From: Oleisolibacter albus | GTDB lineage: Bacteria > Pseudomonadota > Alphaproteobacteria > Azospirillales > Azospirillaceae | Assembly: GCF_003336875.1 (NCBI RefSeq) | Contig: NZ_QGNJ01000001.1 | Span: forward strand, 496,001-560,000 | Direction of reading: 5' to 3' | Length of the DNA stretch: 64,000 bases | Program-made: the position numbers and the translations under genes | Notes under the pieces: model-generated | Told to the model about the DNA's origin: nothing | The model's input: only the letters and a program-made list of their open reading frames with translations | Database searches by the model: none | Shown: positions 1,803-16,122 of the stretch, piece by piece | Layout of the letters: each line of letters opens with the position of its first letter | Position numbering within the stretch: the stretch's first letter is position 1

Positions 1803-2261
1803 TCACAGGCCCAGCTCCGTCCAGCGGGCCGCCAGCTCGGCCGTCAGCGCCGACTGGGCCGCCGCGTCCAGGGTCACGGCCTGGCCCAGGGCCGGCGGTC
1901 CCGGCCAGCCGGCATCGGCCATGTCCAGCCCCTGCCAGGACCGGCTGCCCTCATAGCGGGGGATGACATGGAAATGCACATCAGGATCGACCATCATCAG
2001 CATGAGATAGTTGATCTTCTGATAGGCGGCGACGCCGGCGAGCAGACGCTCGATCCCGGCCACCACCGGCTGCAGCGCGGCGAAGGCCGCGGGGCTGACC
2101 TGACCGAAGGCCGTCACCGGTTCCTTGCACAGCAGGACCAGCGAGCCCAGGGTCGGCTGCTGCGGCCGCAGCAGCACCAGCCATGACGGCGTATCGGCCA
2201 CCAGGGTCCGGGGATAGCCGAATTTCAGCATGGTCGGCGTGGGTTCAAACGGTCTGTGCAT
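1803..2261 (-). CDS. HIT-family hydrolase
   Basis: 152-residue protein with a histidine-triad fold signature near residue 95, DPDVHFHVIPRYEG. The usual H-x-H-x-H pattern has aspartate at the first position, while the central (nucleophilic) and third histidines are kept. HIT enzymes hydrolyse nucleoside polyphosphates such as Ap4A or nucleotide phosphoramidates; the substrate here cannot be told. MLKFGYPRTL (residue 11) is a possible alternative start. It lies directly upstream of lptF with a 7-base gap and is probably co-transcribed with it; a functional link to LPS export is not implied. Confidence 0.85.
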   Translation of the reverse strand: MHRPFEPTPTMLKFGYPRTLVADTPSWLVLLRPQQPTLGSLVLLCKEPVTAFGQVSPAAFAALQPVVAGIERLLAGVAAYQKINYLMLMMVDPDVHFHVIPRYEGSRSWQGLDMADAGWPGPPALGQAVTLDAAAQSALTAELAARWTELGL

Positions 2262-2466
2262 GGTCGCGGGCCGTGGACGGATCGGTGCCGGAAAGGGAAA
2301 CGCCAGCAGCCGGCGACCCTTAAACGCCGGATCGCGCGCCTTGGCGTGTGATGACCGGCACAGTAGCCACAGATTTAGTGCTTATTGTAGGGGCAAAACA
2401 ACAGGGTGCGGAAACGGGTGCCGCCTGCCGGCGGCCGTTTTGCCGTGCCGGTGGAGCTTCCTGTCC

Positions 2467-3000
2467 ATGTTCTCCCTGCCCTCGTCGCCCTGGCCTGCCG
2501 CCCGCCGGCCGGCCGGCGCCATTCTCGCCGCCCCCCTGTTCGCCGCCGCCCTGCTGCTGCCGGGCGCAGACGGCGCCAAGGCCCAGGTTTCCAGCGAAAC
2601 CTGCACGGAGGCCACGGCCAACCGGCTGCAGATCACGGTGGCCGGCGTGCGCACCGGCAAGGGCGGAACGGCCAAGGGGCTGATGGCGATCACGCTCTAT
2701 CCCGACGATGAAAGCCAGTTCCTGGCACGCAAGGGCAAGATCGCCCGTGTCCGCATCCCGGCCACGGCACCGGAAACCCGCGTCTGTCTGCCGCTGCCGG
2801 CGCCCGGCGCCTACGCCGTCGCCGTCTACCACGATGAAAACAGCGACCACGATTTCAACCGCACCCTGCTGGGCATGCCCGCCGAGGGCTACGGCTTCTC
2901 CAACGATGCCGACACCACCCTGGGGCTGCCGCGCTTCAAGGATGTGCGCTTCAACGCCGGTGCCGGCAGCACCGACCTTGTCATCCACCTGCGCTATTGA
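2467..3000 (+). CDS. DUF2141-family exported protein
   Basis: 177 residues with a signal peptide (hydrophobic LAAPLFAAALLLPGA, cleavage probably after KAQ near residue 38). The mature part matches the DUF2141 pattern: LMAITLYPDDESQF, then PAPGAYAVAVYHDENSDHDF, then GMPAEGYGFSNDA. Proteins of this family are small secreted beta-rich proteins of unknown function. The ATG at 2467 was chosen because it begins the signal peptide and has GGAG upstream; a longer in-frame extension to 2230 would bury the signal peptide. The gene stands alone between minus-strand genes. Confidence 0.85.
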   Translation: MFSLPSSPWPAARRPAGAILAAPLFAAALLLPGADGAKAQVSSETCTEATANRLQITVAGVRTGKGGTAKGLMAITLYPDDESQFLARKGKIARVRIPATAPETRVCLPLPAPGAYAVAVYHDENSDHDFNRTLLGMPAEGYGFSNDADTTLGLPRFKDVRFNAGAGSTDLVIHLRY

Positions 3001-3009
3001 CCGTCCCGG

Positions 3010-3954
3010 TCAGGCGGCCAGCACGGCTGGCGGCTGCACGGCCGGCAGCAGCAGCTCATACCGGCCCAGCGTGGCGAATTTGCCGCCGTCCTCCACCAGT
3101 CCCCGTACCGTGACCGCCGCCCGCCAGCCCGCCCCGTCCCGCCGCACCAGCACATCATGCCAGCGCGCCGCATGGGCGCGGTCGGGACCGACCGCCGAGG
3201 CGGAAGGGGCGGTCAGGCTGGGCACCGGCCCCAGCGGCCCGGCCAGGGTGGCCAGGCTGGGACGGTGGGCATGACCATGCAGCAGCAGCTCCGCCCCCAC
3301 GCGGGACAGCATCTGACGGAAGGCCGGCGCATCGGTCAGGCCCTTGCGGGCCGAGACGACGCCACGGCCGACGGGATGGTGCAGCAGCACCACGCGGAAC
3401 AGCCCGCGCCGGCCCAGATCCCACAACACCTGTTCCGCCGCCCGCAGCTGCTCCCCGCCCAGGGTTCCGGTGGCCAGCAGCGGCGGGGTGGGCAGGCCGG
3501 AATTCAGCCCGACAAAGGCCACGGGGCCGCGCACGCGCACGGCGGGGAACAGCCGGTCGGCCGCCAGCGCCGCGCCGTCGTCCCCCTGCATCCAGGGACG
3601 CCACAGACCCAGCCCCTGCGCCCAGGGCACCGGCACCAGCGTGTCGTGGTTGCCGGGCACCAGGGTGACATCGGCCGGGCCGCCCAGGGCCGTCAGCCAG
3701 TCCAGCCCGCGCGCGAACTCGGCGGGAAGGGCGATGTTAGCGATGTCGCCGGTCACCACCACATGATCGGGCCGCGTGGCCCGCACATCGGCGATCAGGG
3801 CCGCCAGCACGGCGGGACTGTGCCGGGCGTGGCGCTTGCGCCGCCAGGACAGATACCCGAACAGCCGTTTCGACAGCCATTGCCGCCCCTGGAGGCGATC
3901 AGGGTCCAGCGGCAGGTGCGGGTCGGAGAAATGCGCGAAGCGATAGGCAAGCAT
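3010..3954 (-). CDS. Calcineurin-like metallophosphoesterase
   Basis: 314-residue protein with the full set of metallophosphoesterase motifs: FAHFSDPHLP (D-x-H), VVVTGDIAN (GD), LVPGNHDTL (GNHD), LLHHPVGR and LHGHAHRP (GHxH). These bind two metals and cleave phosphomono- or diesters; the substrate is not evident. The start at 3954 (MLAYRFAHFSD) places the first motif at the usual N-terminal distance; the in-frame extension to 4035 is unlike the family. It is divergent from the lipid head-group cluster that starts at 4155, with about 200 bases between, so it could be a lipid-pathway phosphatase, but that is only proximity. Confidence 0.85.
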   Translation of the reverse strand: MLAYRFAHFSDPHLPLDPDRLQGRQWLSKRLFGYLSWRRKRHARHSPAVLAALIADVRATRPDHVVVTGDIANIALPAEFARGLDWLTALGGPADVTLVPGNHDTLVPVPWAQGLGLWRPWMQGDDGAALAADRLFPAVRVRGPVAFVGLNSGLPTPPLLATGTLGGEQLRAAEQVLWDLGRRGLFRVVLLHHPVGRGVVSARKGLTDAPAFRQMLSRVGAELLLHGHAHRPSLATLAGPLGPVPSLTAPSASAVGPDRAHAARWHDVLVRRDGAGWRAAVTVRGLVEDGGKFATLGRYELLLPAVQPPAVLAA

Positions 3955-4154
3955 GCGACAAATTGGCGGGGTCATGTGGCGCGGCGGCCACCATGTCATG
4001 AAACTGTCGCCTGCGCGATAGGCAAGGGCGCGCATCCAGGGTATCTAGGCGCGGTTTCCGGCCTGCCGGCGGTGGGCGGGCTGTGTACGGCCGTGCCTGC
4101 CGGGACCGTCCTTTCCGGGATGGCCGGCATGGAGAGACAGACGGGGCGGATGAA

Positions 4155-5312
4155 GTGACTGCGGCGGAGACCAACAAGACGGATGCGGCCCCGATGGGCG
4201 CCATCCTTGGCGACAATCCGGTGCGCCTGTGGGGCATGACCTCGGCGGAACGGCTGCGGCGGTCACTGGTGCGCAACGGTGTCAGGCAGGTGCGGGCCTG
4301 GGACGGGCTGGACCATGGCAGCGCCCAAGTGCTGTTGCGGTCCGACTTCGTCTTCGACGAGGTGCTGGTGCGCGACCTGATCAAGGCGCCGGGCACGGTG
4401 CTGACCGATCCGCGCTCGGGCGAGCCGGTGGCTGCCCATGTGGCCGCCTCCGACGTGGCCGCGGCTGCCGCCATGCTGACCAGCTCCCGCATCGTTCCGG
4501 CCGATCTGAAGAACCGGCTGCGCGTCGTGGGGCCGGCCGATCTGTCCTCGGCCTACAACAACGCCCTGCGCAAGAAGGAGCCGCCCTTCCTGCTGCGTCT
4601 GACGGCGGAGGCCCTGCCCCGCATCGAACAGCGCATGTTCGGCGGCAGCTACAAGGGCGTCACCGATCTGGTGACCAAGTATGTCTGGCCCCTGCCCGCC
4701 CGCCATGTGACCAAGCTCTGCGCCGTGCTGGGCATCAGCCCCAACATGGTGACGACGCTGAGCGCCGTGCTGGTGGCCCTGGCCTTCTGGCTGTTCTGGC
4801 AGGGCCAGTTCCTGCCGGGCCTGGCCTGCGCCTGGGGCATGACCTTCCTGGACACGGTGGACGGCAAGCTGGCCCGCGTCACCCTGACCAGCAGCAAATG
4901 GGGCAATGTCTTCGACCACGGCATCGATCTGGTGCATCCGCCCTTCTGGTACTGGGCCTGGATGGCCGGTCTGGTCGCCGTCGGCCTGCCGCTGGCACAG
5001 GAGGGGCTGATCCTGGCCATCGTCGTCGGCGGCTATGTGGCGCAACGCCTGCAGGAAGGGGCCTTCATCGCCCTGTTCAAGATCGAGATCCATATCTGGC
5101 GGCGCTTCGACAGCCTGTTCCGCCTGATCACGGCCCGCCGCAACCCCAACCTGCTGCTGCTGACGGTGTTCGCCCTGGCCGGCCAGCCGGACACCGGCAT
5201 GGTGGCCGTGGCGGTGTGGACGCTGCTGTCCTTCCTGGTCCACATGGTGCAGATCGTCCAGGCCTTCGGCGCCAGCCGGCGCGGCCCGATCCGCTCCTGG
5301 CTGGCCTCCTGA
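4155..5312 (+). CDS. CDP-alcohol phosphatidyltransferase-family protein with N-terminal extra domain
   Basis: About 385 residues from the GTG start. The C-terminal two thirds is a polytopic CDP-alcohol phosphotransferase; the catalytic signature DG-x2-AR-x8-G-x3-D-x3-D is complete in DTVDGKLARV followed by GNVFDHGID. Such enzymes transfer a phospho-alcohol or phosphatidyl group from a CDP-activated donor. The N-terminal about 130 residues (AERLRRSLVRNGV, DFVFDEVLVRDLIKAPG) resemble a decayed nucleotidyltransferase-like domain seen in fused family members. It opens a tight four-gene run (20, 1 and 9 base gaps) with a lipid kinase, a Tam41-like protein and a methyltransferase, and faces the sphingolipid genes. 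I infer a role in sphingolipid or phospholipid head-group attachment, comparable to the Caulobacter cpg genes. Alternative start: ATG 4194. Confidence 0.85.
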   Translation: MTAAETNKTDAAPMGAILGDNPVRLWGMTSAERLRRSLVRNGVRQVRAWDGLDHGSAQVLLRSDFVFDEVLVRDLIKAPGTVLTDPRSGEPVAAHVAASDVAAAAAMLTSSRIVPADLKNRLRVVGPADLSSAYNNALRKKEPPFLLRLTAEALPRIEQRMFGGSYKGVTDLVTKYVWPLPARHVTKLCAVLGISPNMVTTLSAVLVALAFWLFWQGQFLPGLACAWGMTFLDTVDGKLARVTLTSSKWGNVFDHGIDLVHPPFWYWAWMAGLVAVGLPLAQEGLILAIVVGGYVAQRLQEGAFIALFKIEIHIWRRFDSLFRLITARRNPNLLLLTVFALAGQPDTGMVAVAVWTLLSFLVHMVQIVQAFGASRRGPIRSWLAS

Positions 5313-5331
5313 GACCGGAGCTGCCGCGTTC

Positions 5332-6291
5332 ATGATCCGCGTCGGTCTCATCCGCAATCCCCGCAGCCAGCGCAACAAGCGGGGCGGCGGCGACATGCGC
5401 ACCCAGGCGGCGGCGCTGCTGGGCTATTACTTCGCCGAGCCGGCAACCCCGGCCGAGCTGGCCGAGGTGCTGGCCGACTTCGCCCGGCACGAGGTGGGGA
5501 TCATCTGCATCGACGGCGGCGACGGCACCGTGCGCGAGGTGCTGACCGCCCTGCCCGCCGCCTATGGCGGCGAGTTACCGAAGCTGGCCATCCTGGCCTC
5601 GGGCAAGACCAACCTCATCGCCGCCGATGTGGGCTCGCCCGGCCACGGCCTGGAAGGATTCGGCCGGCTGGTCGACGATGCGCGCAAGGGCTTCCTCGGC
5701 TCGCACCTGCAACGCCGGCCATTGCTGGAGATCAGCTGGCCCGACGGCAGCCACGAGACCATCCGCGGCATGTTCATGGGGGCCGGCGCCTTTACCCGCG
5801 CCACCGATCTTGCCAATAGCAGCATCCATGCCCGCGGCCTGTACAACAATGCCGCCGTGGTGCTGACCATGGCCAATGTGCTGGGCAGCGCCCTGCTGGG
5901 CCGCGACCGTGACGGCTGGCTGGACGGCGAGCCGATGACCGTGTCCGACGGCCGCGACAATGGCCGCGACGGCAACCGCTTCATCTTCCTGGCCACCACG
6001 CTGCACCGGCTGGTCATGGGGCTGTGGCCGTTCTGGGGCGAAGGGAATGGCGCGTTGCGCTATCTCGATGTGGCCGCCCACCCGACCCGGCTGACGGCCG
6101 CCCTGGCGCCCGTCCTGCGCGGCAAGCCCACGCCCTGGATGCTGGCCGACGGCTACCGCAGCGGCGTGGCCGAACGGCTGACGCTGGGGCTGTCGGCGCC
6201 CTTCATCATGGATGGCGAGCGCTTCGAGCCCGGCCCCGGCGGCACCATCCATCTCGATGCCGGCCCGGTGGTGGATTTTGTCATCCCCTGA
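5332..6291 (+). CDS. Diacylglycerol/ceramide kinase-family lipid kinase
   Basis: 319 residues with the DAGK catalytic domain: N-terminal VGLIRNPRSQRNKR, the nucleotide-binding IDGGDGTVREVL near residue 63, ILASGKTNLIAADVG, and the acidic C-terminal sandwich domain (FIMDGERFEPG). The family phosphorylates lipid alcohols such as diacylglycerol, sphingosine or ceramide with ATP. In Caulobacter a member of this family is reported as the ceramide kinase of anionic sphingolipid synthesis. The gene lies 20 bases after the CDP-alcohol enzyme and one base before the Tam41-like gene, opposite a serine palmitoyltransferase operon, so ceramide is a plausible substrate; diacylglycerol cannot be excluded. 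Confidence 0.88.
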   Translation: MIRVGLIRNPRSQRNKRGGGDMRTQAAALLGYYFAEPATPAELAEVLADFARHEVGIICIDGGDGTVREVLTALPAAYGGELPKLAILASGKTNLIAADVGSPGHGLEGFGRLVDDARKGFLGSHLQRRPLLEISWPDGSHETIRGMFMGAGAFTRATDLANSSIHARGLYNNAAVVLTMANVLGSALLGRDRDGWLDGEPMTVSDGRDNGRDGNRFIFLATTLHRLVMGLWPFWGEGNGALRYLDVAAHPTRLTAALAPVLRGKPTPWMLADGYRSGVAERLTLGLSAPFIMDGERFEPGPGGTIHLDAGPVVDFVIP

Positions 6292-6292
6292 G

Positions 6293-7252
6293 ATGTCCTT
6301 CCGCAACCACGTGGCCGCAAGCCGGCTGCAGCACGCCGTGGACGCCGAACTGACCTTGCCGGTACCGGCGGCGGCCACCGCCCTGGCTGCGGCCCTGGCG
6401 GACCATGGCGGCGGCAGCGTGGCGGCGGTGCTGTTCTATGGCTCGGTGCTGCGCACCGGCGATCTGGACGGAATCCTGGACTTCTATGTGCTGACCAGTT
6501 CCCTGCGCGGCTGGCACCGGCATGGCGGGCTGGCCCTGGCCACGCGCCTGCTGCCACCGACGGTGGAATACTGGGAACTGCCCTGGCAGGGCGGGACCGT
6601 GCGGGCCAAGGTGGCCGTGCTGCGCACCGACCAGTTCGCCCGCGCCGTGCGCGCCGGGGCCATCGACACCACCATCTGGGCCCGGTTCTGCCAGCCGGTG
6701 CGGCTGCTGTATGCCCGTGACCAGGAAAGCCGGCAGCGCGTCACCGCCCTCATCGCCGCCGCGGTCACCACCGCGGCCGGCTGGGCCGCGCGGCTGGGGC
6801 CGCCGGAGGGCACCGATGCGCCCGGATTCTGGGATGCCCTGTTCCGCCACACCTATGCCGCCGAGCTGCGGGTGGAAAAGGGAGACCGTGCCGTCAGCAT
6901 CGTCGATCATGCCCGCGACCGCTACGCCGCGCTGCTGACCCCGGCCTGGACGGCCGGTGGCCTGGCCTGGGAGCAGGGTGCGGACGGGCCCCTGGTCCCC
7001 CGGCTGACGCCGGCCGCACGGGCCCGCGCCCGCCGCGCCTGGGCGGTCCGCCGCCGGCTGGGCAAGCTGCTGAACATGGCGCGGCTGGTGAAGGCGGCCT
7101 TCACCTTCACCGGCGGCGTCGATTACATCCTGTGGAAGATCGAGCGCCATTCCGGCGTGCGGCCGGAGATGACGCCGTGGCAGCGGCGGCATCCGGTGCT
7201 GTCGGCCCCCCTGATGCTCTGGCGGCTGTGGCGTCGCGGCGCCGTGCGCTGA
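6293..7252 (+). CDS. Tam41/Mmp37-like nucleotidyltransferase (candidate lipid-phosphate cytidylyltransferase)
   Basis: 319 residues. Residues about 45-65 read LFYGSVLRTGDLDGILDFYV followed by GWHRHG, which fits the Tam41 pattern YGSG-x-n-D-F/I then W/F-H. Further on, VRAKVAVLRTDQF and then IWARFCQPVRLLYARD match the Tam41 segment K-x-G-V-n-L-n-AGRL-x-KPV in order and spacing. Tam41 is the mitochondrial phosphatidate cytidylyltransferase that makes CDP-diacylglycerol. Here the gene sits between a lipid kinase (one-base gap) and a methyltransferase, downstream of a CDP-alcohol transferase. I infer that it activates the kinase product with CTP. It could instead be a generic polymerase-beta-type nucleotidyltransferase; the family assignment is by eye. 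Confidence 0.65.
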   Translation: MSFRNHVAASRLQHAVDAELTLPVPAAATALAAALADHGGGSVAAVLFYGSVLRTGDLDGILDFYVLTSSLRGWHRHGGLALATRLLPPTVEYWELPWQGGTVRAKVAVLRTDQFARAVRAGAIDTTIWARFCQPVRLLYARDQESRQRVTALIAAAVTTAAGWAARLGPPEGTDAPGFWDALFRHTYAAELRVEKGDRAVSIVDHARDRYAALLTPAWTAGGLAWEQGADGPLVPRLTPAARARARRAWAVRRRLGKLLNMARLVKAAFTFTGGVDYILWKIERHSGVRPEMTPWQRRHPVLSAPLMLWRLWRRGAVR

Positions 7253-7261
7253 GGCGGGGAC

Positions 7262-7858
7262 ATGGAACCGTCCAGCCTGCCCCATTACGACCTGCATGCC
7301 GAAGCCTATGCCGAGGCGCTGCTGTCCCACGATTTGGGGGAAGCGCGGGAGAAGTTCCTGGCCGCCCTGCCCCGGCACCCGGCCGACATCCTTGATCTGG
7401 GCTGCGGCCCCGGCCGGGATCTGGCCGCCTTCGCCAGGGCCGGCGAACGGGCCGTGGGGCTGGACGGGTGTTCCGTGCTGGCCGATGTGGCCCGGCGGCA
7501 CAGCGGCTGTCCGGTGTGGGAGGCCGATCTGCGCACCGCGCCCCTGCCCCCGGCCGCCTTCGACGGCCTGTTCGCCCAGGCCGTGTTGTTCCACATCGCC
7601 ACGGCCGAGCTGCCGGACCTATTGCAGCGGCTGCGCCGGTGCCTGCGCCCCGGCGGTATCCTCTATGCCTGCGACCCCAGCGGCGCCGGCGAAGAGGGCT
7701 GGGCCGACGGGCGCTATCTGGCCTTCCGCCGGCCGCAATCGCTGGCCGCCCTCTATCGCCGTGCCGGATTCGATCTGGTGGAACAGTGGCGCCGGCCGCC
7801 GGGCCGGCCCCGCCGGCAGCAGGACTGGCAGGCCTGGCTCTGGCGGCGCCGGGGCTGA
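7262..7858 (+). CDS. Class I SAM-dependent methyltransferase
   Basis: 198 residues with a Rossmann methyltransferase core: motif I ILDLGCGPGRDL near residue 44, acidic ribose ligand in AVGLDGCS, EADLRTAPLPPAAFDGLFAQ (motifs II/III) and LRPGGILYACDPSG (motif post-III). The substrate is unknown. It is the last gene of the lipid head-group run, 9 bases after the Tam41-like gene, and is followed by a strong hairpin, so head-group or lipid methylation is a reasonable guess but not shown. The C-terminus is very basic (RRPPGRPRRQQDW). Confidence 0.82.
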   Translation: MEPSSLPHYDLHAEAYAEALLSHDLGEAREKFLAALPRHPADILDLGCGPGRDLAAFARAGERAVGLDGCSVLADVARRHSGCPVWEADLRTAPLPPAAFDGLFAQAVLFHIATAELPDLLQRLRRCLRPGGILYACDPSGAGEEGWADGRYLAFRRPQSLAALYRRAGFDLVEQWRRPPGRPRRQQDWQAWLWRRRG

Positions 7859-7888
7859 CGCCCGCCCGGAGCAAACGCCCGAAAACGA

Positions 7889-7916
7889 ACCGGCCCGGCG
7901 TTGCCGCCGGGCCGGT
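7889..7916. terminator. Hairpin between convergent lipid operons
   Basis: Perfect 12-bp stem (7889-7900 with 7905-7916) and TTGC loop in the 88-base gap between the methyltransferase stop (plus) and the serine palmitoyltransferase stop (minus). There is no long T run on either side, but its position between convergent ends fits a bidirectional terminator. Confidence 0.6.
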
Positions 7917-7946
7917 CGCAACCTCGTTATGATTGGACCGTGCGCC

Positions 7947-9170
7947 TTACTCGGCCGCGGCCTGGACGAACTCCTTGGCCGGCAGCACGCCGAGCTGCTG
8001 GCCGACCTGGGCGAACAGGTCGAGGGCCTGGTCGATCTGTTCGGTCGTGTGCGCCGCGCTGACGCTGGTGCGCAGCAGGGCCATGCTGTTGGGCGTGGCC
8101 GGCGGCAACGCCAGATTGAGATACAGGCCGGCATCCAGCAGGGCGTTCCAGAAGGCGATGGCCACCTCCTTCGACGGCAGGATCACCGACACGATGGGGT
8201 TGGGCTGCGGACCGACGGAGAAGCCCAGATCCATCAGCCCCTTGTACAGCCGCTCGGCATTGCCCATCAGCCGATGGCGCAAATCCGGCTCCTGCTGCAG
8301 CCGCTTCAGCGATTGCAGGGTGGTGGCGATGACCGACGGCGGCAGCGAGGCCGTGAACATATAGGGCCGGCAGGCCACGCGCAGGATGTCGAAATCCGGC
8401 AGGTCGGAGACGCAGAAGCCGCCGACGGCCCCCAGGCTCTTGGAGAAGGTGCCGACGATGAAATCGACATCGGCCTCAACCCCATCCGCTTCGGCCTGGC
8501 CGCGGCCCGTCGGACCCAGCACGCCCATGGAATGGGCCTCGTCCACCAGCAGGAAGGCACCGGTCTCGCGCTTGACCTGGGCGAATTCCTTGATCGGGGC
8601 GGCATCGCCCAGCATGGAATAGATGCCCTCGACCACCACCAGCTTGTTGCCGGGATGGTCGGACAGGCGGCGCAGCCGCTTGTACAGATCGTCCGGGTCG
8701 TTGTGCCGGAAGCGCACCACCTGGGCCGTGCCCATCTTGGCGGCATCATAGATGCTGGCGTGGCTGTCGCTGTCGATCAGCAGGATGTCGTCCTTGCCGA
8801 CCAGCGTCGAGATCATGCCCAGATTGGCCTGATAGCCGGTGGTGAACACCATGCAGTGCTGGCGGCCGTAGAAGTCGGCCAGCGCCTTTTCCAGATCGCC
8901 ATGGCCGGCATAGCTGCCGTTGGCGATGCGGGAGCCGGTGGTGCCCGTCCCCTGCTGGGTCAGCGCCTCGACACCGGCGGCAATCGCGCTCTCGTCGAAG
9001 GTCAGGCCCAGATAATTGTTGGTCCCGAGCAGGATGGTCCTGCGGCCGTTCAACAGCCCTTCCGTCGGCGACAGGATGCGCTCGAACCGGACGGAAAACG
9101 GATCATGGCCAAAGGACCGCAGTCGTTCGTAGTTCTCACGCAGCGGTGAGAATTTTGCGAGAATCGTCAT
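7947..9170 (-). CDS. spt: Serine palmitoyltransferase (sphingolipid backbone synthesis)
   Basis: 407-residue alpha-oxoamine synthase. Visible: GTNNYLGL, DSDSHASIYDA, the PLP-contact DEAHSMGVLG, and the Schiff-base lysine motif TFSKSLGAVGG. Bacterial serine palmitoyltransferase condenses serine with an acyl thioester to 3-ketosphinganine. The same family includes KBL and BioF, but the context decides: the gene directly follows an acyl carrier protein (2-base gap) and lies downstream of an NAD-dependent reductase and a fatty-acyl-AMP ligase, the order described for the ceramide genes of Caulobacter. The enzyme probably takes its acyl chain from that carrier protein. Length and motifs are complete. 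Confidence 0.92.
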   Translation of the reverse strand: MTILAKFSPLRENYERLRSFGHDPFSVRFERILSPTEGLLNGRRTILLGTNNYLGLTFDESAIAAGVEALTQQGTGTTGSRIANGSYAGHGDLEKALADFYGRQHCMVFTTGYQANLGMISTLVGKDDILLIDSDSHASIYDAAKMGTAQVVRFRHNDPDDLYKRLRRLSDHPGNKLVVVEGIYSMLGDAAPIKEFAQVKRETGAFLLVDEAHSMGVLGPTGRGQAEADGVEADVDFIVGTFSKSLGAVGGFCVSDLPDFDILRVACRPYMFTASLPPSVIATTLQSLKRLQQEPDLRHRLMGNAERLYKGLMDLGFSVGPQPNPIVSVILPSKEVAIAFWNALLDAGLYLNLALPPATPNSMALLRTSVSAAHTTEQIDQALDLFAQVGQQLGVLPAKEFVQAAAE

Positions 9171-9172
9171 AT

Positions 9173-9424
9173 TCAGGCGCGCCCCCGGAGTTCCTGAATC
9201 GTCAAGGCCAAGTCGCCGACCGTCTCGACCTCGGCGATCCGCTCCAAGGGGATCGAGACGTCGAACTTGTCTTCAAGCACCATGACGAAATCCATCACCG
9301 CCAGGGAGTCCAGTCCCAGATCCCGGGTGATGCTGGTATCAGGTGTTATTGTGACCGGCGCTTGCAGGCTGGGCCCGAGGGCATGAATGATTTCAGTCAC
9401 GATCTCGTCGATCTCGGCGTTCAT
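9173..9424 (-). CDS. acpR: Acyl carrier protein of the sphingolipid locus
   Basis: 83 residues, acidic, with the phosphopantetheine attachment motif DLGLDSLAVMDF (serine near residue 40) and a typical four-helix ACP pattern. It lies 2 bases upstream of the serine palmitoyltransferase gene and downstream of the reductase and acyl-AMP ligase genes. In the Caulobacter ceramide locus a dedicated ACP delivers the acyl chain to Spt; I infer the same role. It is not the housekeeping AcpP, which would sit with fab genes. A 211-base gap upstream suggests its own promoter. Confidence 0.9.
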   Translation of the reverse strand: MNAEIDEIVTEIIHALGPSLQAPVTITPDTSITRDLGLDSLAVMDFVMVLEDKFDVSIPLERIAEVETVGDLALTIQELRGRA

Positions 9425-9566
9425 TCAACGCACCCGGGATTTGGCATAGGATGGTCTTGCTTCTTTGAATTGGCTGAAAGGCCGGATATCGGAAAGAAAA
9501 GCGTCACGGTCTCGTAAGGTAAGTGCAACGCTCCAGGATGCAAGCGCAAACTACTGTATAACCGTA

Positions 9567-9579
9567 CTGGACAGTCCAG
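9567..9579. promoter_or_regulatory. Palindrome in the acp-spt upstream gap
   Basis: The 211-base gap 9425-9635 is less GC-rich than its surroundings and holds the perfect palindrome CTGGAC-A-GTCCAG. On the minus strand a TATACA (candidate -10) begins about 11 bases further on, so the palindrome would lie between the -35 and -10 regions of a promoter reading into acp. No convincing -35 was found, so this is only a candidate operator. Confidence 0.3.
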
Positions 9580-9635
9580 AAATCTGCGCGATTGACAATT
9601 CCGCAACATCGTCCCCTACGGCTAGGCTGGAGGGC

Positions 9636-10586
9636 CTAGAGCCAGCCCTCCGCCCGGTACCAGGCCACGGCGGCGGCGAATCCTTTGACGATGTCCGACG
9701 AAGGCCGCCACAGCGACAGGGGCGGAAGGGTAGTGGGGGCAACAGACCAGTCGCAGTGACGGATCTCACGCACCTTACCCGCAGTCAGCATGACTGGCCT
9801 GCGGGTCGCCCATGCCTTTGCCGTTCCGGCCAGCCCCAGAGCGGCCAGCGCCGGGCCGGGAACGGGGACGCGGACGGCCCGGCGCCCGACCGCCGCGGCG
9901 GCGGCGTCCAGGATCTCGCCCCAGCCATACCCCGCGGGATTTCCGTCGGCCAGTTCGAATACCCGCCCCGCCGGTCCGCCGGGTCGGGCCAGTGCGGCCA
10001 CGGCCGCGGCGCAGTCCGTTGCCTCGATCATGGCGATTCGGGCCTCGGGTCCACCGGGAACGGGCACAAGTGGGCCGGACGCGGCCTTGAACAGGGCCAG
10101 GGTTTCCCGGTCCCAGGGGCCGTAAATGGCCGGCGGGCGTACCACCAGCCATTCTCCGGCACCGATGGCGGCGATGGCGGCCCGCTCCCCGGCGTGCTTG
10201 CTGGCGGCATAGTCGGACAGGGTCGGCTCCCGCGCCGCCTGGCTGGAGACCAGCAGCAGCCGGGCGGCAGGGGCGCAGCGCGCCACCGCCTGTCCCAGCC
10301 GGGCCGACCCGGCTTCGTTGATGCGGAAGAAACCGGCGCGGTTGACGGCCTTGATCAGGCCGGCGGCATGGATCACCACCGCCGCCCCGGCGACCAGGCG
10401 GTCCAGCGCCCCGTCACTGAACAGGTCCCCCGGTACCAGTTCCAGCGCCACAGGCTGCAGCAGCGGATGCACCGGGTCCTGCCGCGCCAGCAGGCGCACC
10501 CGGAAGCCGGCGCGGTCCAGTGCCCGGACCAGATAGCGGCCCAGGAAGCCGGTCCCGCCGGTCAGGGCGGCAACGGGACGCTGCAT
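9636..10586 (-). CDS. cerR: CerR-type NAD-dependent epimerase/reductase
   Basis: 316 residues, extended short-chain dehydrogenase. The NAD(P) motif TGGTGFLGRYLV is at residues 8-19; the catalytic serine is in LLLVSSQAAREP and the YxxxK pair in YAASKHAGER; VRPPAIYGPWD is typical of extended SDRs. In Caulobacter the homologous gene (CerR) reduces the keto group of the acylated 3-keto backbone. Start ATG 10586 lies 5 bases after the acyl-AMP ligase stop, indicating co-transcription. A general sugar-nucleotide epimerase role is less likely in this context. Confidence 0.85.
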   Translation of the reverse strand: MQRPVAALTGGTGFLGRYLVRALDRAGFRVRLLARQDPVHPLLQPVALELVPGDLFSDGALDRLVAGAAVVIHAAGLIKAVNRAGFFRINEAGSARLGQAVARCAPAARLLLVSSQAAREPTLSDYAASKHAGERAAIAAIGAGEWLVVRPPAIYGPWDRETLALFKAASGPLVPVPGGPEARIAMIEATDCAAAVAALARPGGPAGRVFELADGNPAGYGWGEILDAAAAAVGRRAVRVPVPGPALAALGLAGTAKAWATRRPVMLTAGKVREIRHCDWSVAPTTLPPLSLWRPSSDIVKGFAAAVAWYRAEGWL

Positions 10587-10591
10587 GGCCC

Positions 10592-12319
10592 TCAGGCCGC
10601 CGACGGGGCAGCGAAGGCACCGTGCAGATACATCTGCTTGGCCCGCGACCGGCTGAGCTTGCCCGACGAGGTCTGCGGCAAGGCATGGGTCGGCACCAGC
10701 ACCACCTTGACCTCGACTCCGTGGGCGGCACGCAGCACACCGGCCACCTCCTGCTCCAGCGCGGTGCGGGCGGCGGGATCGGCGGAACGGCACTGCACCA
10801 GCACCGTCACCGCCTCGCCGGACTCGGCATCGACGGAGAAGGCGGCCACGTCGCCGCTGCGCAGGCCGGCCACCTGATGCTCGGCCGTCCATTCCAGATC
10901 CTGCGGCCAGATGTTGCGGCCATTGACCAGGATCAGGTCCTTGGCGCGGCCGGTGATGACGATCTGACCATCGCAGATGTAGCCGAGATCGCCGGTATCG
11001 AGCCAGCCATCGGCGCCCATGACGGCCGCCGTTTCCTCCGGCCGGCCGAAATACGCCTTCATCAGCGACGGACCGCGGGCGAAGATGCGGCCGACGCGAC
11101 GCTCCGGCAGCGGCTTGCCATCCTCGTCACGCACCTCCACTGCATGGCCCGGCAGCGGCGGGCCATTGAGCACGAAGGCGCGGGCCCGGGTCGACTCGGT
11201 CTGGGCCGGCACGGCGATCTGCTCGTTTTCCAGCCGGTCCAGCTCGATCAGATCGGTGACGATGCCGCGGTCCAGCGGCGCGAAGGTCAGCGCCAAGCTG
11301 GCCTCGGCCATGCCATAGCTGGCGACGAAGGCCTCGCGCCGGAAGCCACGCGCGGCAAAGGCCGTGCTGAAACGCTCCATCACCCGCGGACGCACCATGT
11401 CGCCGCCGATGCCGGCCACGCGCCAGCGCGACAGGTCCAGTTCCTCGGTCGAGGCCGTCTCGGCCCGGCGGGCGGCCAGCTCGTAGCCGAAGCTGGGGCT
11501 GTAGGAGATGGTGCCGCCATTGCGCGTGATGAGGCTGAGCCAGAGCAGCGGCCGGCGGGCGAATTCCCGCGTCGGCAGGTAATCGACGCTGAGCTGCGCG
11601 ATCAGCGGCGCCAGCATGAAGCCCACCAGCCCCATATCGTGGTAGAGCGGCAGCCAGGAGGTGGCACGGTCGCCGCCCCGCACCTGCAACCCGTGCCGGG
11701 TGATACCGGCGGCATTGGCCATCAGCGCATCCTGGGTGACAGCCACGCCCAGGGGAAAGCGCGTGCTGCCCGACGAGAACTGCAGATAGCAGAGATGGTC
11801 GCCGCGGACCTTCGGCAGGTCGGCGCCGGCGGCGGGAATGTCCTGGAACAGGGCCAGCGTCCCCACCGCCTTCAGGCCCAGCCCGTCGGTGGCGGCCTGA
11901 AGCCATTCGCCCAGGGCGGCGGGCGCCAGGGCCGCGCTGGCCTGGGCGCCCTGGATCATGCGGCGGATATGGTCGATATAATGGTCCTTGCCGCCGAAGG
12001 CCGCGGGCAGCGGCAGCGGCGCCGGCACCAGGCCGGCATACTGGCAGGCGGCAAAGGCCCGCATGAAATCGCCGTCGGATTCCGCGACGATGGCGATGCG
12101 TTCCCCCGGCACCAGACCGGCGCGCAGCATGCGCTGCGCCAGATCCAGCGCCTGGTCGCGCAGGTCCCGGTAGGACAGCACCTCGACCAGTTCACCCCGG
12201 CCGGAATAGAAGTTGAACCCGGTCGCACCCTTGGCGGCGTAGTCGAGGGCTTCGGCAACAGTCCCGAACTCGGCAAGGCGGGGAGCCAGCCCGGACTCCG
12301 ACGGTGTAACACTGACCAT
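10592..12319 (-). CDS. aasR: Fatty-acyl-AMP ligase / acyl-ACP synthetase of the sphingolipid locus
   Basis: 575-residue ANL-superfamily enzyme. The P-loop is LQFSSGSTRFPLGV; YGMAEASLALTF and GDLGYICDGQIVITGRAKD follow, and VNGRNIWPQDLEW is the fatty-acyl-AMP ligase version of the A8 hinge. The enzyme should activate a fatty acid as acyl-AMP and load it on the ACP encoded two genes downstream. The last residues include SSGKLSRSRAKQMY, containing the A10 lysine. ATG at 12319. First gene of a four-gene unit aasR-cerR-acp-spt. As in Caulobacter, the separate bacterial ceramide synthase (N-acyltransferase) gene is not adjacent. Confidence 0.88.
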   Translation of the reverse strand: MVSVTPSESGLAPRLAEFGTVAEALDYAAKGATGFNFYSGRGELVEVLSYRDLRDQALDLAQRMLRAGLVPGERIAIVAESDGDFMRAFAACQYAGLVPAPLPLPAAFGGKDHYIDHIRRMIQGAQASAALAPAALGEWLQAATDGLGLKAVGTLALFQDIPAAGADLPKVRGDHLCYLQFSSGSTRFPLGVAVTQDALMANAAGITRHGLQVRGGDRATSWLPLYHDMGLVGFMLAPLIAQLSVDYLPTREFARRPLLWLSLITRNGGTISYSPSFGYELAARRAETASTEELDLSRWRVAGIGGDMVRPRVMERFSTAFAARGFRREAFVASYGMAEASLALTFAPLDRGIVTDLIELDRLENEQIAVPAQTESTRARAFVLNGPPLPGHAVEVRDEDGKPLPERRVGRIFARGPSLMKAYFGRPEETAAVMGADGWLDTGDLGYICDGQIVITGRAKDLILVNGRNIWPQDLEWTAEHQVAGLRSGDVAAFSVDAESGEAVTVLVQCRSADPAARTALEQEVAGVLRAAHGVEVKVVLVPTHALPQTSSGKLSRSRAKQMYLHGAFAAPSAA

Positions 12320-12497
12320 GGCAACTCATTCCAACGACAAGAGAAAGCCCCGGCAGGGCGGGGCGGATATTGCGCACAACGGGCAGGACCGCACAACAAA
12401 ACACGGCCGCCCGCCACCCGGCCGGGACCGCTGCGCGGCGCTCTTAGCAGAGACGCCCCGCCTGCGGCAATGACGGCGCTCCGGCGGGGCCAGCATG

Positions 12498-13631
12498 TCA
12501 GGCACGCCCCGGCCGATCCAGGAAATCAGCCAGGATCTCCGCATTGTGCCGTGCCGGATGTGGCACGCCGAGATCGAAGGTCTCCGCCACGGCGGCCGTC
12601 TGCACCGGGCGGAACTCCGCCTCGCGGGCGAAGGCATCGTCCAGCCCGGCCATGACCGCGCGCACATCGTCCACCACAGGCCCCAACGTCCAGAAACGGT
12701 AGCGGTCATCCCCCTGCCAGGCGACCCCATGCGCGTTCAGGAACAGGCAGGGGCGCGGTGACAGCAGAAACTCGTAAACCTGGCTGCTGACATCGCCCAT
12801 GTAGAGATCGGCCGCTGTGACATAGGTCATATCAATGCTCCGCGTGCTGCCGAGATCGATCAGCATGTGCGGCAGGCCGCGATAGCGGGCAAAGGGCGCG
12901 TAGCTGTCGGGCGTGGGCGGATCGAACAGGCGCACATGCGGCGCGAAGATCAGATTGAAGCGGTCGCTGGCCGCGACCTGATCGAGGATGCGGAAGCCCC
13001 AATCGGGCCAGGAGGACAGGGCCGGGCGGAAATGCGGATTGTAGAGGATGGTCGGGCGCTGCGCCGGGAACAGCGGCGCCCGCTCCTGCCGCAGCCGCCG
13101 CACCAGATCGAACTTGGCGTAGGCACCGACAGCGTAATGGCCGGGGCGGATGATGCCCAGGTCCAGCAGCCACTTGGCTGTCTTCGGTCCCGGGGTCAGG
13201 GCGAAGTCGAACTTGGCGATGCGCTTGTCCACGGCCGTGGCCCGGTCACCGGCGCCATGGGCCGTATGGATGAATTTCGGCCGGGTCACGCCGAAGCGCT
13301 TGAGATTGAGGCTGGTCTTCTCGGTCAGAACGATGGCGTCGAAACTGTCGAACAGACGGCGGTTGTGCCACAGCGTCCACAGCTTCGGCGCCACGGTGAC
13401 GGGCCGGACCCGGCGATAGAGGCTGAAGGCCGCCGGTTCGTCCAGCAGGCAGTACTGCACCCGCGCCTCGGGATAAAGGGGTTGCAGGCCGCGGATGAAA
13501 TCCAGATGTCCCTGGGTCGAGGCCAGGATGCAGACATCGAAATCCGGACGCAGGGCCGACAGCTCGAAGGCCACCGGCAGGCTGTGCAGGATCTGGTGGT
13601 ACTGGGTGTTGTAGTAGAAGGCGATCTTCAT
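12498..13631 (-). CDS. CDP-glycerol glycerophosphotransferase-like protein
   Basis: 377 residues, GT-B-like. FIHTAHGAGDR and, near the C-terminus, ADLYMGDVSSQVYEFL then RPCLFLNAHGVAW match the poly(glycerophosphate) transferase family, where the D-x-SS motif binds the nucleotide donor. Members transfer glycerol-phosphate or related groups from CDP donors to a lipid-linked or glycan acceptor. The start MKIAFYYNTQ at 13631 is clear. It is followed by a 178-base gap before the sphingolipid operon and preceded (65 bases) by a flippase gene on the same strand. I infer a surface-glycan or ceramide head-group modification; the acceptor is not identifiable. Confidence 0.75.
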   Translation of the reverse strand: MKIAFYYNTQYHQILHSLPVAFELSALRPDFDVCILASTQGHLDFIRGLQPLYPEARVQYCLLDEPAAFSLYRRVRPVTVAPKLWTLWHNRRLFDSFDAIVLTEKTSLNLKRFGVTRPKFIHTAHGAGDRATAVDKRIAKFDFALTPGPKTAKWLLDLGIIRPGHYAVGAYAKFDLVRRLRQERAPLFPAQRPTILYNPHFRPALSSWPDWGFRILDQVAASDRFNLIFAPHVRLFDPPTPDSYAPFARYRGLPHMLIDLGSTRSIDMTYVTAADLYMGDVSSQVYEFLLSPRPCLFLNAHGVAWQGDDRYRFWTLGPVVDDVRAVMAGLDDAFAREAEFRPVQTAAVAETFDLGVPHPARHNAEILADFLDRPGRA

Positions 13632-13696
13632 GCTGTCCTGACCCCTGCGAGGACGGCCCGGAACAGCCGCCCCCCCTTTCTTCGCACCGGCCCGGC

Positions 13697-15064
13697 CTAT
13701 CCGGCGGATTGCACCGCCGGCTGGCGGAACCAGCGCAGCACCGGCCGCAGGAATGCGGCGAACATCAGCACGGCCACCGCAAGGCGGACCCAGCCCGCCC
13801 CCGCCAGCCCGGCATGGTCGAGCGCCAGGAACAAGGCCGGGATGTACAGGGCCGAGGTCCAGGCGCGGATGCGCGTGGCCGTGCCCGCCTGACCGTTGGA
13901 GATCAGCATGGGCTCCAGCGGAAAGGACCAGATGCCGACCACGGCCGCCGCGATCAGCCAGAGCATGACGCCGTAGGCGGAGACGAACTCCGGTCCCAGC
14001 ACCAGCGACAGCAGCGGCTTGCCCAGCAGCGCCGCCACCAGCATCAGGGCCGTGGCCCCGGCCCCGGCGATCAGGGCCGACCGTTCGATCAGATGGCGCA
14101 TCGAGGCCCGGTCGCCGGCGGCGGCCAGACGCGCCAGTTCGGGATAGATGGCCGGCACCAGCAGCTTGGCCGGCTTGGCCACGCCGTCGGCCACCTGGCG
14201 CGCCACCCGGAACAGGCCGGCCTCGGTCGACCCCATCATCCAGCCCACCACCAGCGTGCCCACATGGGTAAAGGCCAGTTCCAGGGTGGAATTCAGGTTG
14301 GTGGACCAGACGAAGCTCCAGATGCCCGGAAAGCCGTGGGTCATCGGCCCCTCCCCGCGCCAGCGGAACCCCTCCAGCAGGCCACGCGTGCGCAGCTCGC
14401 GCCAGCCGGCAGCGATCAGGAACAGGCCGGCCACCACCGTGGCCAGATACCAGGCGGCCAGGAAGGCGACCAGACCGCCGCCGGCAAGCCAAACGGCCAG
14501 ACCCGCGGCCATGCGCACGAACCAGCCCAGCGTGCCCTGCACCGAGAGGAGCGAGAAGCGGTCGACCAGGCGCAGCACGCCGGTCGGCGTGGCCGTCACC
14601 ATGAACAGAACCGAGGTCACATAGATCAGCGCCGCCGGCATCACCTCCGCCGGCCAATGCAGATGCGGGCCGACGAACCAGGCGATGAGCACCGACAGGA
14701 CCATGCCGGCCAGGGCGCTGACCCCGTCCAGCAGCACGGTGAAGCGCAGCAGCCGCTGGAAAGCCGGCCGGTCGCCGCTGTCCAGGGCCGGGGTGCCGTA
14801 GCGGATCACGGCCTGCCAGGACTGGAACTTGGCGATCTCGCCGATGGCCTGGGTGAAGGTGTGGATCAGCACCAGCACGCCAAATTCCTCGGCGCCGAGC
14901 GCCCGGGCGGCGATGGCCAGGCCGGCCAGGCTGAACAGGGCATTGAAGCCTTTTCCGCCCAGCAGGATGCCGGCATTGCTGAACAGGCGGCGCAACCGCT
15001 GGTCGGCGAACCAGCGGGGCGGCGGCATGGTCGGATCGGGTGGGGTGGGAAGCGGTTCTGCCAT
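13697..15064 (-). CDS. Polysaccharide/lipid-linked oligosaccharide flippase (MOP family)
   Basis: 455 residues, about 12 to 14 predicted membrane helices. The N-terminal part LFSNAGILLGGKGFNALFS and the segment SWQAVIRYGT are typical of RfbX/Wzx-type polysaccharide biosynthesis proteins that flip lipid-linked glycans across the inner membrane. Start ATG 15064 (MAEPLPTPPDP) is chosen because the much longer in-frame extension to 15439 is low-complexity and overlaps the mlaA promoter region. It precedes the glycerophosphotransferase-like gene and may export its product. Confidence 0.8.
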   Translation of the reverse strand: MAEPLPTPPDPTMPPPRWFADQRLRRLFSNAGILLGGKGFNALFSLAGLAIAARALGAEEFGVLVLIHTFTQAIGEIAKFQSWQAVIRYGTPALDSGDRPAFQRLLRFTVLLDGVSALAGMVLSVLIAWFVGPHLHWPAEVMPAALIYVTSVLFMVTATPTGVLRLVDRFSLLSVQGTLGWFVRMAAGLAVWLAGGGLVAFLAAWYLATVVAGLFLIAAGWRELRTRGLLEGFRWRGEGPMTHGFPGIWSFVWSTNLNSTLELAFTHVGTLVVGWMMGSTEAGLFRVARQVADGVAKPAKLLVPAIYPELARLAAAGDRASMRHLIERSALIAGAGATALMLVAALLGKPLLSLVLGPEFVSAYGVMLWLIAAAVVGIWSFPLEPMLISNGQAGTATRIRAWTSALYIPALFLALDHAGLAGAGWVRLAVAVLMFAAFLRPVLRWFRQPAVQSAG

Positions 15065-15210: not shown

Positions 15211-15306
15211 GTGCAGGCTTAAAGTGGATCTTTGTTCGCGTCGGACGATCGCGCGTACAGGGACGCCGTATCGACGCCTTATTCATCCCTTGCCGACCCA
15301 GGAACC

Positions 15307-16122
15307 ATGCCCGTGCCAACCGTCCTCGACCGCCCCCATCGCCTGCGCCGGCTGGCAACCGCGGCCACCTGGCTTCTGGTTCTCTCCTCCACGGCCCTGT
15401 CGACCTCGCTGGCCACGGCCCAGGAGGCTCCGCCGGCACCGACGGAAGCCGACAACACCAACGATCCGCTGGAGCCGATCAACCGCGGCGTCTTCTGGTT
15501 CAACGAACTGCTGGATGTGGTGCTGCTGCGCCCGGCGGCGGAAATTTACCGCGAGGTGGTGCCGGACCCGGCCCAGACCGGTGTCCGCAACGCCCTGCGC
15601 AACCTGCGCTCGCCGCTGGACCTGGCCAACCAGACGCTGCAGGGCGACTGGGATGGCGCCGGCAATGTGCTGAAGCGCTTCGCCCTCAACACCACCGTCG
15701 GCATCGGCGGCCTGATCGACGTGGCGGCCCAGCAGGGCATCCCCTACGAGTATGAGAGCTTCGACCAGACCCTGGCCGTCTGGGGCGTGCCCGAGGGGCC
15801 CTATCTCGTGCTGCCGCTGATCGGTGCCTCCTCGGTGCGCGATGCCGTCGGCTTCGGCGCCGAGTATCTGGGCGATCCGGTCAGCCTCTATGCCAGCAAC
15901 AACGACCTGGAGTGGGCCAACTACACCCGCGCCGGTCTGACGGTGCTGGATACCCGCGCCGGCTATATCGACGTCATCGACGATCTGCGCCGCAACAGCT
16001 TCGACTATTACGCCGCCATGCGCTCGCTCTACCGCCAGCGCCGCGACGGCTGGATCCGCGACGGTGCCCCGGACGCAAGCCGTCTGCCGGACATTCCGGA
16101 TTACGAGGCGGCGGACCAGTAG
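15307..16122 (+). CDS. mlaA: MlaA/VacJ-family phospholipid-asymmetry protein
   Basis: 271 residues. The family signature NDPLEPINRGVFWFN follows the signal sequence, and AVWGVPEGPYLVLPLIGASS is the conserved central segment. MlaA sits in the outer membrane and removes surface phospholipid for retrograde transport. The N-terminus MPVPTVLDRPHRLRRLA leads into a hydrophobic stretch ending LATAQEAPP; no cysteine is present, so unlike E. coli MlaA this is not a lipoprotein and looks like a signal peptidase I substrate. ATG 15307 is preferred; an in-frame start at 15232 would put 25 extra residues before the signal peptide. Confidence 0.88.
   Translation: MPVPTVLDRPHRLRRLATAATWLLVLSSTALSTSLATAQEAPPAPTEADNTNDPLEPINRGVFWFNELLDVVLLRPAAEIYREVVPDPAQTGVRNALRNLRSPLDLANQTLQGDWDGAGNVLKRFALNTTVGIGGLIDVAAQQGIPYEYESFDQTLAVWGVPEGPYLVLPLIGASSVRDAVGFGAEYLGDPVSLYASNNDLEWANYTRAGLTVLDTRAGYIDVIDDLRRNSFDYYAAMRSLYRQRRDGWIRDGAPDASRLPDIPDYEAADQ

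Follow-up and report, generated by a model that had tools for sequence, protein, structure and literature searches.

The closest described counterpart of the locus considered here is the cluster CC_1152-CC_1168 of Caulobacter crescentus, for which PMC11324152 lists cpgABCD, spt, cerR, aasR, acpR, cerS and lptF2/G2/C2. It serves the formation of two anionic sphingolipids, ceramide phosphoglycerate (CPG) and CPG2, which carries a second phosphoglycerate. Biochemical work identified CpgB as a ceramide kinase (PMC10331486) and CpgD as the enzyme making cytidine diphosphate (CDP)-glycerate (PMC12275187). The genetics reported in PMC11324152 place CC_1160 and CC_1161 among the genes required for CPG, the loss of CC_1161 abolishing this lipid, while CC_1159, CC_1158, CC_1153 and CC_1152 serve CPG2, with CC_1159 and CC_1152 required for that lipid alone; cells without CC_1159 still made CPG once CC_1160 was supplied. 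The conversion of ceramide-1-phosphate (C1P) to CPG is the open step of the Caulobacter pathway: PMC12275187 and a May 2026 preprint (PMC13228409) leave the mechanism of CpgC unidentified, the latter speaking of an 'unidentified mechanism'. We analysed a stretch of 64,000 nucleotides, in the following the window, from Oleisolibacter albus (Azospirillaceae; assembly GCF_003336875.1, contig NZ_QGNJ01000001.1, positions 496,001-560,000 of the forward strand). Its positions 4155-15064 are the core of a longer sphingolipid island that reaches past both ends of this segment and upstream of the window. Judged from the genes it holds, the locus is a Niveispirillum-group version of the Caulobacter-type CPG/CPG2 island, with activities predicted throughout.

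The likeness to Caulobacter covers the gene content and, within the limits of the gene descriptions in PMC11324152, the locus-tag order between CC_1152 (cpgD) and CC_1166 (flippase). Shared are a phosphoesterase, cpgA-cpgB-cpgC next to spt, and cpgD, a nucleotidyltransferase, cerS and lptFG upstream. In contrast to Caulobacter, a methyltransferase gene lies between cpgC and spt, a TagF-related gene, possibly of glycosyltransferase B (GT-B) type, between aasR and the flippase gene, a fatty acid hydroxylase gene upstream and mlaA beside the flippase gene. The whole set of cpgA, cpgB, cpgC, cpgD, a CC_1153-type nucleotidyltransferase, the phosphoesterase and lptF2/G2 is present in one region of the genome, together with the ceramide genes spt, acpR, cerR, aasR and cerS (the acyl carrier protein by motif and place). 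We consider it on balance probable that the island as a whole encodes the route from ceramide via C1P and CDP-ceramide to CPG and CPG2. AasR, AcpR, Spt, CerR and CerS would build ceramide, which CpgB would phosphorylate to C1P. CpgC would move CMP from CTP onto C1P, yielding CDP-ceramide, and a transferase other than CpgA, possibly a housekeeping CDP-alcohol enzyme, would exchange CMP for glycerate, yielding CPG. Separately, CpgD would make CDP-glycerate, and CpgA, with a HIT-family protein as likely helper, would add the second phosphoglycerate to form CPG2. Export of the lipid may be accomplished by LptF2/G2 and the flippase.

The kinase and the nucleotidyltransferase were searched in an unbiased set of 289 alphaproteobacterial genomes drawn evenly, where the first look scored at most 6-9 candidates per genome. 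CpgC was present in 34 genomes. A CpgB-type kinase of at least 199 bits occurred in exactly these 34 and in none of the 255 others, the best score without CpgC being 59.8 bits. Spt (E up to 1e-95) was found in 40 genomes including all 34. Within 100 bp of each other lay cpgB and cpgC in 31 of the 34 genomes, the exceptions being G156, G218 and G259. CpgA (at least 395 bits) was confined to 20 of the 34 and absent from the other 14, and CpgD (at least 298 bits; next score 127.7) occurred in exactly the same 20. Thus the sets were strictly nested over the 289 genomes, Spt (40) enclosing CpgB and CpgC (34) and these in turn CpgA and CpgD (20), with 14 genomes holding kinase and CpgC and lacking both CpgA and CpgD. 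The data support, circumstantially, that CpgB and CpgC form one unit tied to sphingolipid synthesis. The nesting splits the pathway into two modules and names strains for each. A CdsA-type enzyme (PF01148) was detected in 36 of 36 genomes searched, the 34 and two CpgA-less Niveispirillum-group genomes, and the idea that CpgC replaces a missing CdsA was rejected on this count. A chance neighbourhood of the two gene sets in the window was rejected as well: of the 12 family loci 10 had spt close to cpgC, as did 61 of the 80 named ones.

The protein encoded by cpgC (6293-7252, plus strand) is a Tam41-fold nucleotidyltransferase and a probable C1P cytidylyltransferase, i.e., a CDP-ceramide synthase, as indicated by its predicted fold and conserved residues. 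No Pfam or NCBIfam family matched the window protein, also in a search at E up to 10, ten single homologues had no Pfam match at E up to 0.1, the Tam41 family PF09139 matched 2 of 24 homologues (best E 9.1e-7) and 3 of 55 in a larger set (best 2.7e-6), and profile searches against Protein Data Bank sequences returned nothing useful. An AlphaFold2 (AF2) model from 55 sequences had a mean predicted local distance difference test (pLDDT) score of 93.9. In a Foldseek search its best structural match was the bacterial Tam41 with bound CTP-Mg (7ecd, E 1.6e-7), and the alignment of 230 residues gave Z 18.4 with a root-mean-square deviation of 3.3. Mitochondrial Tam41 (6ig4, Z 16.0) and a further Tam41 structure (6ig2, Z 15.5) followed, and the next family, aminoglycoside nucleotidyltransferases, reached Z 8.0. 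The label 'Tam41-like' of the first-pass annotation, remote by sequence, was thereby borne out. Residues invariant in all 55 sequences include Y49, G50, D63, K106, W129, R131, Q134, P135, E191, R193, K267, Y278 and K282, and S51 is nearly invariant. After the GS pair at 50-51, the catalytic strand D63-F64-Y65 lacks the second acid of the nucleotidyltransferase fold and retains D63 in 55/55, the comparison covering the two acid positions of this strand; Tam41 is reported to keep only one of the three acids of the fold (PMC11646218). CpgC resembles the Tam41/TAMM41 CDP-diacylglycerol (CDP-DAG) synthases in its whole fold and in the single acid of the catalytic strand, and differs from them by an identity of 11-13 % in structural alignments, by escaping PF09139 in the case of the window protein and by its coupling to a ceramide kinase and Spt. 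Because of this coupling, its lipid substrate is probably C1P, to which it would most likely attach CMP taken from CTP. If CDP-ceramide exists, ceramides have a liponucleotide chemistry as diacylglycerols do. The first-pass annotation knew of no described bacterial CDP-ceramide step; the idea is not new, since 'NDP-activated ceramide' was proposed from an InterPro domain as a possible product of CC_1161 (Olea-Ozuna 2024, PMC11324152). Our proposal concerns the same reaction and the same kind of gene, and is backed by fold and genome co-occurrence. The term 'CDP-ceramide' itself was not found in the literature searched; among its variants we found just 'activated ceramide' in PMC11324152, the remaining hits dealing by title with other subjects. 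New here are the strictly nested modules, the genomes with PgsA and PssA alone and the HIT gene tracking CpgA and CpgD, the latter two presented below.

CpgA (4155-5312, plus strand) combines a cytidylyltransferase-like N-terminal domain with a CDP-alcohol phosphotransferase domain (PF01066, E 1.2e-8, residues 195-285). Its AF2 model from 43 sequences (pLDDT 93.4) aligned with AF2299 (4o6n) over 318 residues, near full length, with Z 24.3, and with IPCT-DIPPS (4mnd) with Z 22.7, both of which share the fusion of a cytidylyltransferase-like N-domain to a membrane CDP-alcohol domain. D236, G237, A240, R241, G250, D254 and D258 are invariant in 43/43 sequences, and the protein thus carries, beside the fused nucleotidyltransferase-like domain, DG(x)2AR(x)8G(x)3D(x)3D, which we take to be the CDP-alcohol phosphotransferase motif. 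Unlike in AF2299 and IPCT-DIPPS, the usual cytidylyltransferase signature is not visible in the N-domain of CpgA; for this reason the domain is probably degenerate, and the active cytidylyltransferase is likely a separate protein, CpgD. DIPPS uses soluble CDP-inositol, and the IPCT-DIPPS-like fold therefore favours a soluble CDP-alcohol such as CDP-glycerate as donor for CpgA. Taken together with the genome distribution, CpgA most likely uses CDP-glycerate to convert CPG to CPG2, in line with the published genetics. The same use of CDP-glycerate is put forward as a hypothesis in PMC12275187 and PMC13228409.

The first-pass annotation had instead placed CpgA directly behind CpgC, with the kinase making C1P, the Tam41-like enzyme making CDP-ceramide and the CDP-alcohol enzyme displacing CMP by a polar alcohol. 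The first two steps of this chain gained circumstantial support from the shared 34 genomes, all with Spt. Its last step was contradicted and, although the genes are adjacent, often in the order cpgA-cpgB-cpgC, and CpgA has the fold and motif of a CDP-alcohol phosphotransferase, we regard it as very improbable. CpgA acting on CDP-ceramide was rejected because the protein is missing in 14 of the 34 genomes with CpgB and CpgC and tracks CpgD in the 20 others; the AF2299/IPCT-DIPPS fold speaks against it too, as does the requirement of CpgA for CPG2 and not for CPG in Caulobacter (PMC11324152, PMC12275187), where the lack of CC_1159 leaves CPG formation intact once CC_1160 is supplied (PMC11324152).

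The link between CpgA and CpgD was followed further in a second set of 50 CpgC genomes, which were chosen for and against a local cpgA and hence do not present natural frequencies. CpgA was absent from 11 of the 50. CpgD accompanied CpgA in 39/39 genomes: 36 scored at least 345 bits, G334 had a divergent copy at 198 bits, and in G328 (198 + 101 bits) and G367 (153 bits) the gene was in pieces, read as broken at contig ends. All 11 CpgA-less genomes of this set lacked CpgD, the best paralogue there scoring 109 bits. Several CpgA-less genomes are metagenome-assembled. The HIT protein was present in 35 of the 39 genomes with CpgA and in one of the 11 without. Its five exceptions among the 50 are G333, with HIT and without CpgA, and G334, G335, G361 and G367, with CpgA and without HIT. 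On the CpgC tree, the distribution of CpgA requires at least seven changes, five of them forced by starred branches. Over the five independent pairs on supported branches CpgD followed CpgA in 5/5 (sign test p 0.0625) and HIT in about 4/5; with five pairs the sign test cannot reach 0.05. Two close genomes of the Niveispirillum group, those of Azospirillum sp. RU38E and of Niveispirillum sp. SYP-B3756, have lost cpgA and the HIT gene but preserve cpgB, cpgC and the genes of the methyltransferase and the phosphoesterase in their places, and neither CpgA nor CpgD nor HIT was found in these two strains. The HIT protein is seen as a likely helper of CpgA. In Caulobacter, CC_1157 is assumed from its position to be the HIT gene; PMC11324152 calls it probably unrelated, finds no cofitness tie to the cluster and reports Zymomonas to lack both CC_1157 and CC_1159.

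Which enzyme forms CPG in the absence of CpgA was approached by counting PF01066 proteins in 19 CpgC genomes, of which 11 are CpgA-less. Five of the latter (G060, G191, G288, G322, G329) hold just two such proteins, PgsA and a PssA-like protein; the other six have three or four. PgsA was above the cut-off of TIGR00560 in 5/5. The PssA-like proteins reached TIGR00473 just above its cut-off of 107 bits in two genomes and scored 106.8, 88.9 and 80.0 in the others; the 106.8-bit protein of G322 scored slightly higher, 109.3 bits, on the archaetidylserine synthase model, for which the cut-off is 240. It is thus conceivable, if rather doubtful, that CpgC is a dedicated CDP-ceramide synthase whose product enters the ordinary phospholipid machinery, with PgsA or PssA making the first phosphoglycerate head group in some CpgA-less genomes. 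Between the two, our guess is PssA, because glycerate corresponds to serine with a hydroxyl replacing the amine. The literature searched held nothing joining CPG with phosphatidylserine synthase. If true, sphingolipid and glycerophospholipid head-group synthesis would share a transferase.

Two further explanations concern the reaction of CpgC itself. It may form no liponucleotide at all and either activate glycerate with an NTP or join glycerate directly to C1P, CpgB and CpgC then sufficing for CPG. The Caulobacter papers draw the step from C1P to CPG as that of CpgC by an unknown mechanism (PMC12275187, PMC13228409), and five of 11 CpgA-less genomes lack a dedicated CDP-alcohol transferase; against it stand the fold and the apparently single-acid active site of CpgC, which are those of a CTP:lipid-phosphate cytidylyltransferase, and we judge this explanation unlikely. 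Alternatively CpgC could simply duplicate CDP-DAG synthesis, with phosphatidate as its substrate, in a pathway that uses CDP-DAG only. Tam41 is the nearest solved fold, bacterial Tam41 makes CDP-DAG and proteobacterial Tam41 homologues are reported (PMC11646218). However, CpgC was always accompanied by Spt and CpgB in the 289-genome draw (34/34), no CpgB of at least 199 bits occurred without CpgC, all 34 genomes have a CdsA-type enzyme besides, and in Caulobacter the loss of CC_1161 removes CPG (PMC11324152). A CpgC confined to phosphatidate is hence quite improbable.

Several observations weigh against the route via CDP-ceramide that we prefer. In 7 of the 80 named loci (L073, L084, L089, L094, L100, L128, L132) no CpgB-type kinase was seen near cpgC in a local search only, some of these loci being short, and L106 had just a weak kinase match near cpgC (39.8 bits). 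With only PgsA and PssA available in five of the 11 CpgA-less genomes, CDP-ceramide is there used by one of these two or by an enzyme of another fold, or it does not exist. Pfam does not recognise CpgC, with just 3 of 55 homologues matching PF09139, and this family matched none of 14 control genomes, Caulobacter vibrioides among them, nor the O. albus genome; being silent in controls and own genome alike, the genome search is uninformative by itself. Bacterial Tam41 acts on phosphatidate (PMC11646218), and CDP-ceramide so far stands in print as a hypothesis. The MobA-like gene was kept in 8 of 11 CpgA-less fetched loci, yet in Caulobacter mutation of the corresponding gene abolishes CPG2 and spares CPG (PMC11324152). 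Finally, orthology to Caulobacter was assigned by gene content, order and published descriptions, the sequences having been compared with those of Roseomonas.

All genes listed in the first-pass annotation were recovered at their coordinates by family searches and open reading frame (ORF) calls, with Pfam or NCBIfam matches for most and a serine motif and position for the acyl carrier protein. The lptG2, HIT and metallophosphoesterase genes of the window, and upstream of it cpgD, the MobA-like gene, cerS and the rest of lptF2, come in addition to that list. The genes cpgA-cpgB-cpgC-methyltransferase on the plus strand and spt-acp-cerR-aasR-TagF-like-flippase on the minus strand run convergently. 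From the upstream end, the island reads cpgD, other genes, the MobA-like nucleotidyltransferase, cerS, the fatty acid hydroxylase gene, lptF2, lptG2, HIT, DUF2141, metallophosphoesterase, cpgA, cpgB, cpgC, methyltransferase, spt, acp, cerR, aasR, the TagF/GT-B-like gene, flippase and mlaA. The gene cpgD (11437-12234 of the fetched stretch L142; 54 % to the Roseomonas homologue), the MobA-like nucleotidyltransferase gene (58 %) and cerS (54 % to the homologue in L141) lie just outside the window, all within 6.6 kb upstream. The fatty acid hydroxylase gene between cerS and lptF2 (L142, 16519-17313, minus strand) matches PF04116 with E 7.4e-19. At the window edge, a partial lptF2-like permease gene (3-569, minus strand; matching a Roseomonas LptF/LptG permease with 41 % over 165 amino acids) extends beyond the upstream edge (L142, 17443-18570). 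It is followed by an lptG2-like gene of the LptF/LptG permeases (512-1795, minus strand; PF03739, E 1.2e-69 on 515-1795; 44 % to the Roseomonas homologue), with a probable role in lipid export. The HIT-family protein (1803-2261, minus strand) has 66 % identity to a protein annotated as HIT family in L141 and 17.1 bits on PF01230, under the cut-off of 21.5. A DUF2141 protein, frequent in these clusters (2230-3000, plus strand, start codon uncertain; PF09912, E 2.6e-25), precedes the calcineurin-like metallophosphoesterase (3010-4035, minus strand; PF00149, E 1.1e-11), the positional counterpart of Caulobacter CC_1158, published as a phosphoesterase. The cpgB-like gene (5332-6291, plus strand) encodes a lipid kinase, a probable ceramide kinase (DAGK_cat, E 7.5e-9).

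The S-adenosylmethionine-dependent methyltransferase (7262-7858, plus strand; PF08241, Methyltransf_11, E 1.5e-16) is a lineage-specific addition that could modify the head group; 11 of the 12 fetched family loci carry its gene near cpgC, in the interval separating cpgC from spt, but only 9 of the 80 named loci have it near cpgC. On the minus strand follow the serine palmitoyltransferase gene spt (7947-9170; NF047599, 684 bits with a cut-off of 500, E 4e-206), acpR (9173-9424), an ORF of 83 amino acids assigned by serine motif and position with homologues adjoining spt in family loci, the cerR-like gene of an NAD(P)-dependent epimerase/reductase (9636-10586; PF01370, E 5.3e-20; start set from family loci) and the fatty acyl-AMP ligase gene aasR (10592-12319; AMP-binding, E 2e-47; PRK09192, E 3.3e-265). 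The gene at 12498-13631 (minus strand) was found where the first-pass annotation had placed a glycerophosphotransferase-like protein, a label that proved remote: the protein itself has no Pfam match, 4 of 16 homologues match PF04464 (Glyphos_transf; best 7e-5), and the family profile matched the TagF-like polymerase Cps3D with E 0.0031, outranked by two AP2-factor chains (0.00032 and 0.0027). Of the 80 named loci 18 contain such a TagF-related/GT-B-like gene, in many cases close to spt or to the flippase gene; it is gone together with cpgA at the RU38E locus, but CpgA-less loci of Acidisoma, Endobacter and Nevskia retain it. The MOP/Wzx-type flippase (13697-15064, minus strand; PF01943, Polysacc_synt, E 1.9e-11) adjoins an MlaA (VacJ) lipoprotein (15232-16122, plus strand; PF04333, E 2.5e-66), an arrangement shared by 9 of the 12 family loci.

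Related loci were met elsewhere. An annotated plasmid of Roseomonas haemaphysalidis carries nearly the same genes, aasR and cerR having changed place, with a fatty acyl-AMP ligase and a short-chain dehydrogenase/reductase standing on one side. The order continues with a phosphocholine-cytidylyltransferase family protein (cpgD), a nucleotidyltransferase, a 'dATP pyrophosphohydrolase' in the place of cerS, two LptF/LptG permeases, HIT, DUF2141, metallophosphoesterase, CDP-alcohol transferase, a diacylglycerol kinase family protein, a hypothetical protein (cpgC), aminotransferase and acyl carrier protein. In two Nitrospirales loci (L131, L135), two CpgA-like enzymes flank cpgB-cpgC, and none of spt, acp, cerR and aasR turned up within the stretches fetched. 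The Diaphorobacter plasmid pDCB2 (L138), typed as conjugative IncP, bears a related sphingolipid island with genes of nonribosomal peptide synthetase-like, cytochrome P450 and phosphopantetheinyl transferase type, parts of which recur in L073, L084 and L089. Beside its cerS-like gene lies a second, different CDP-alcohol transferase, likewise in L073, L084, L100, L108, L109, L127 and L132. Plasmid pPNP1 of Pseudomonas sp. JS425 (L139; IncP replicon) holds acyl-AMP ligase, epimerase, acyl carrier protein, aminotransferase, lptFG, kinase, cpgC, CDP-alcohol transferase and a cpgD-like gene, and this plasmid-borne island is a sign of horizontal movement.

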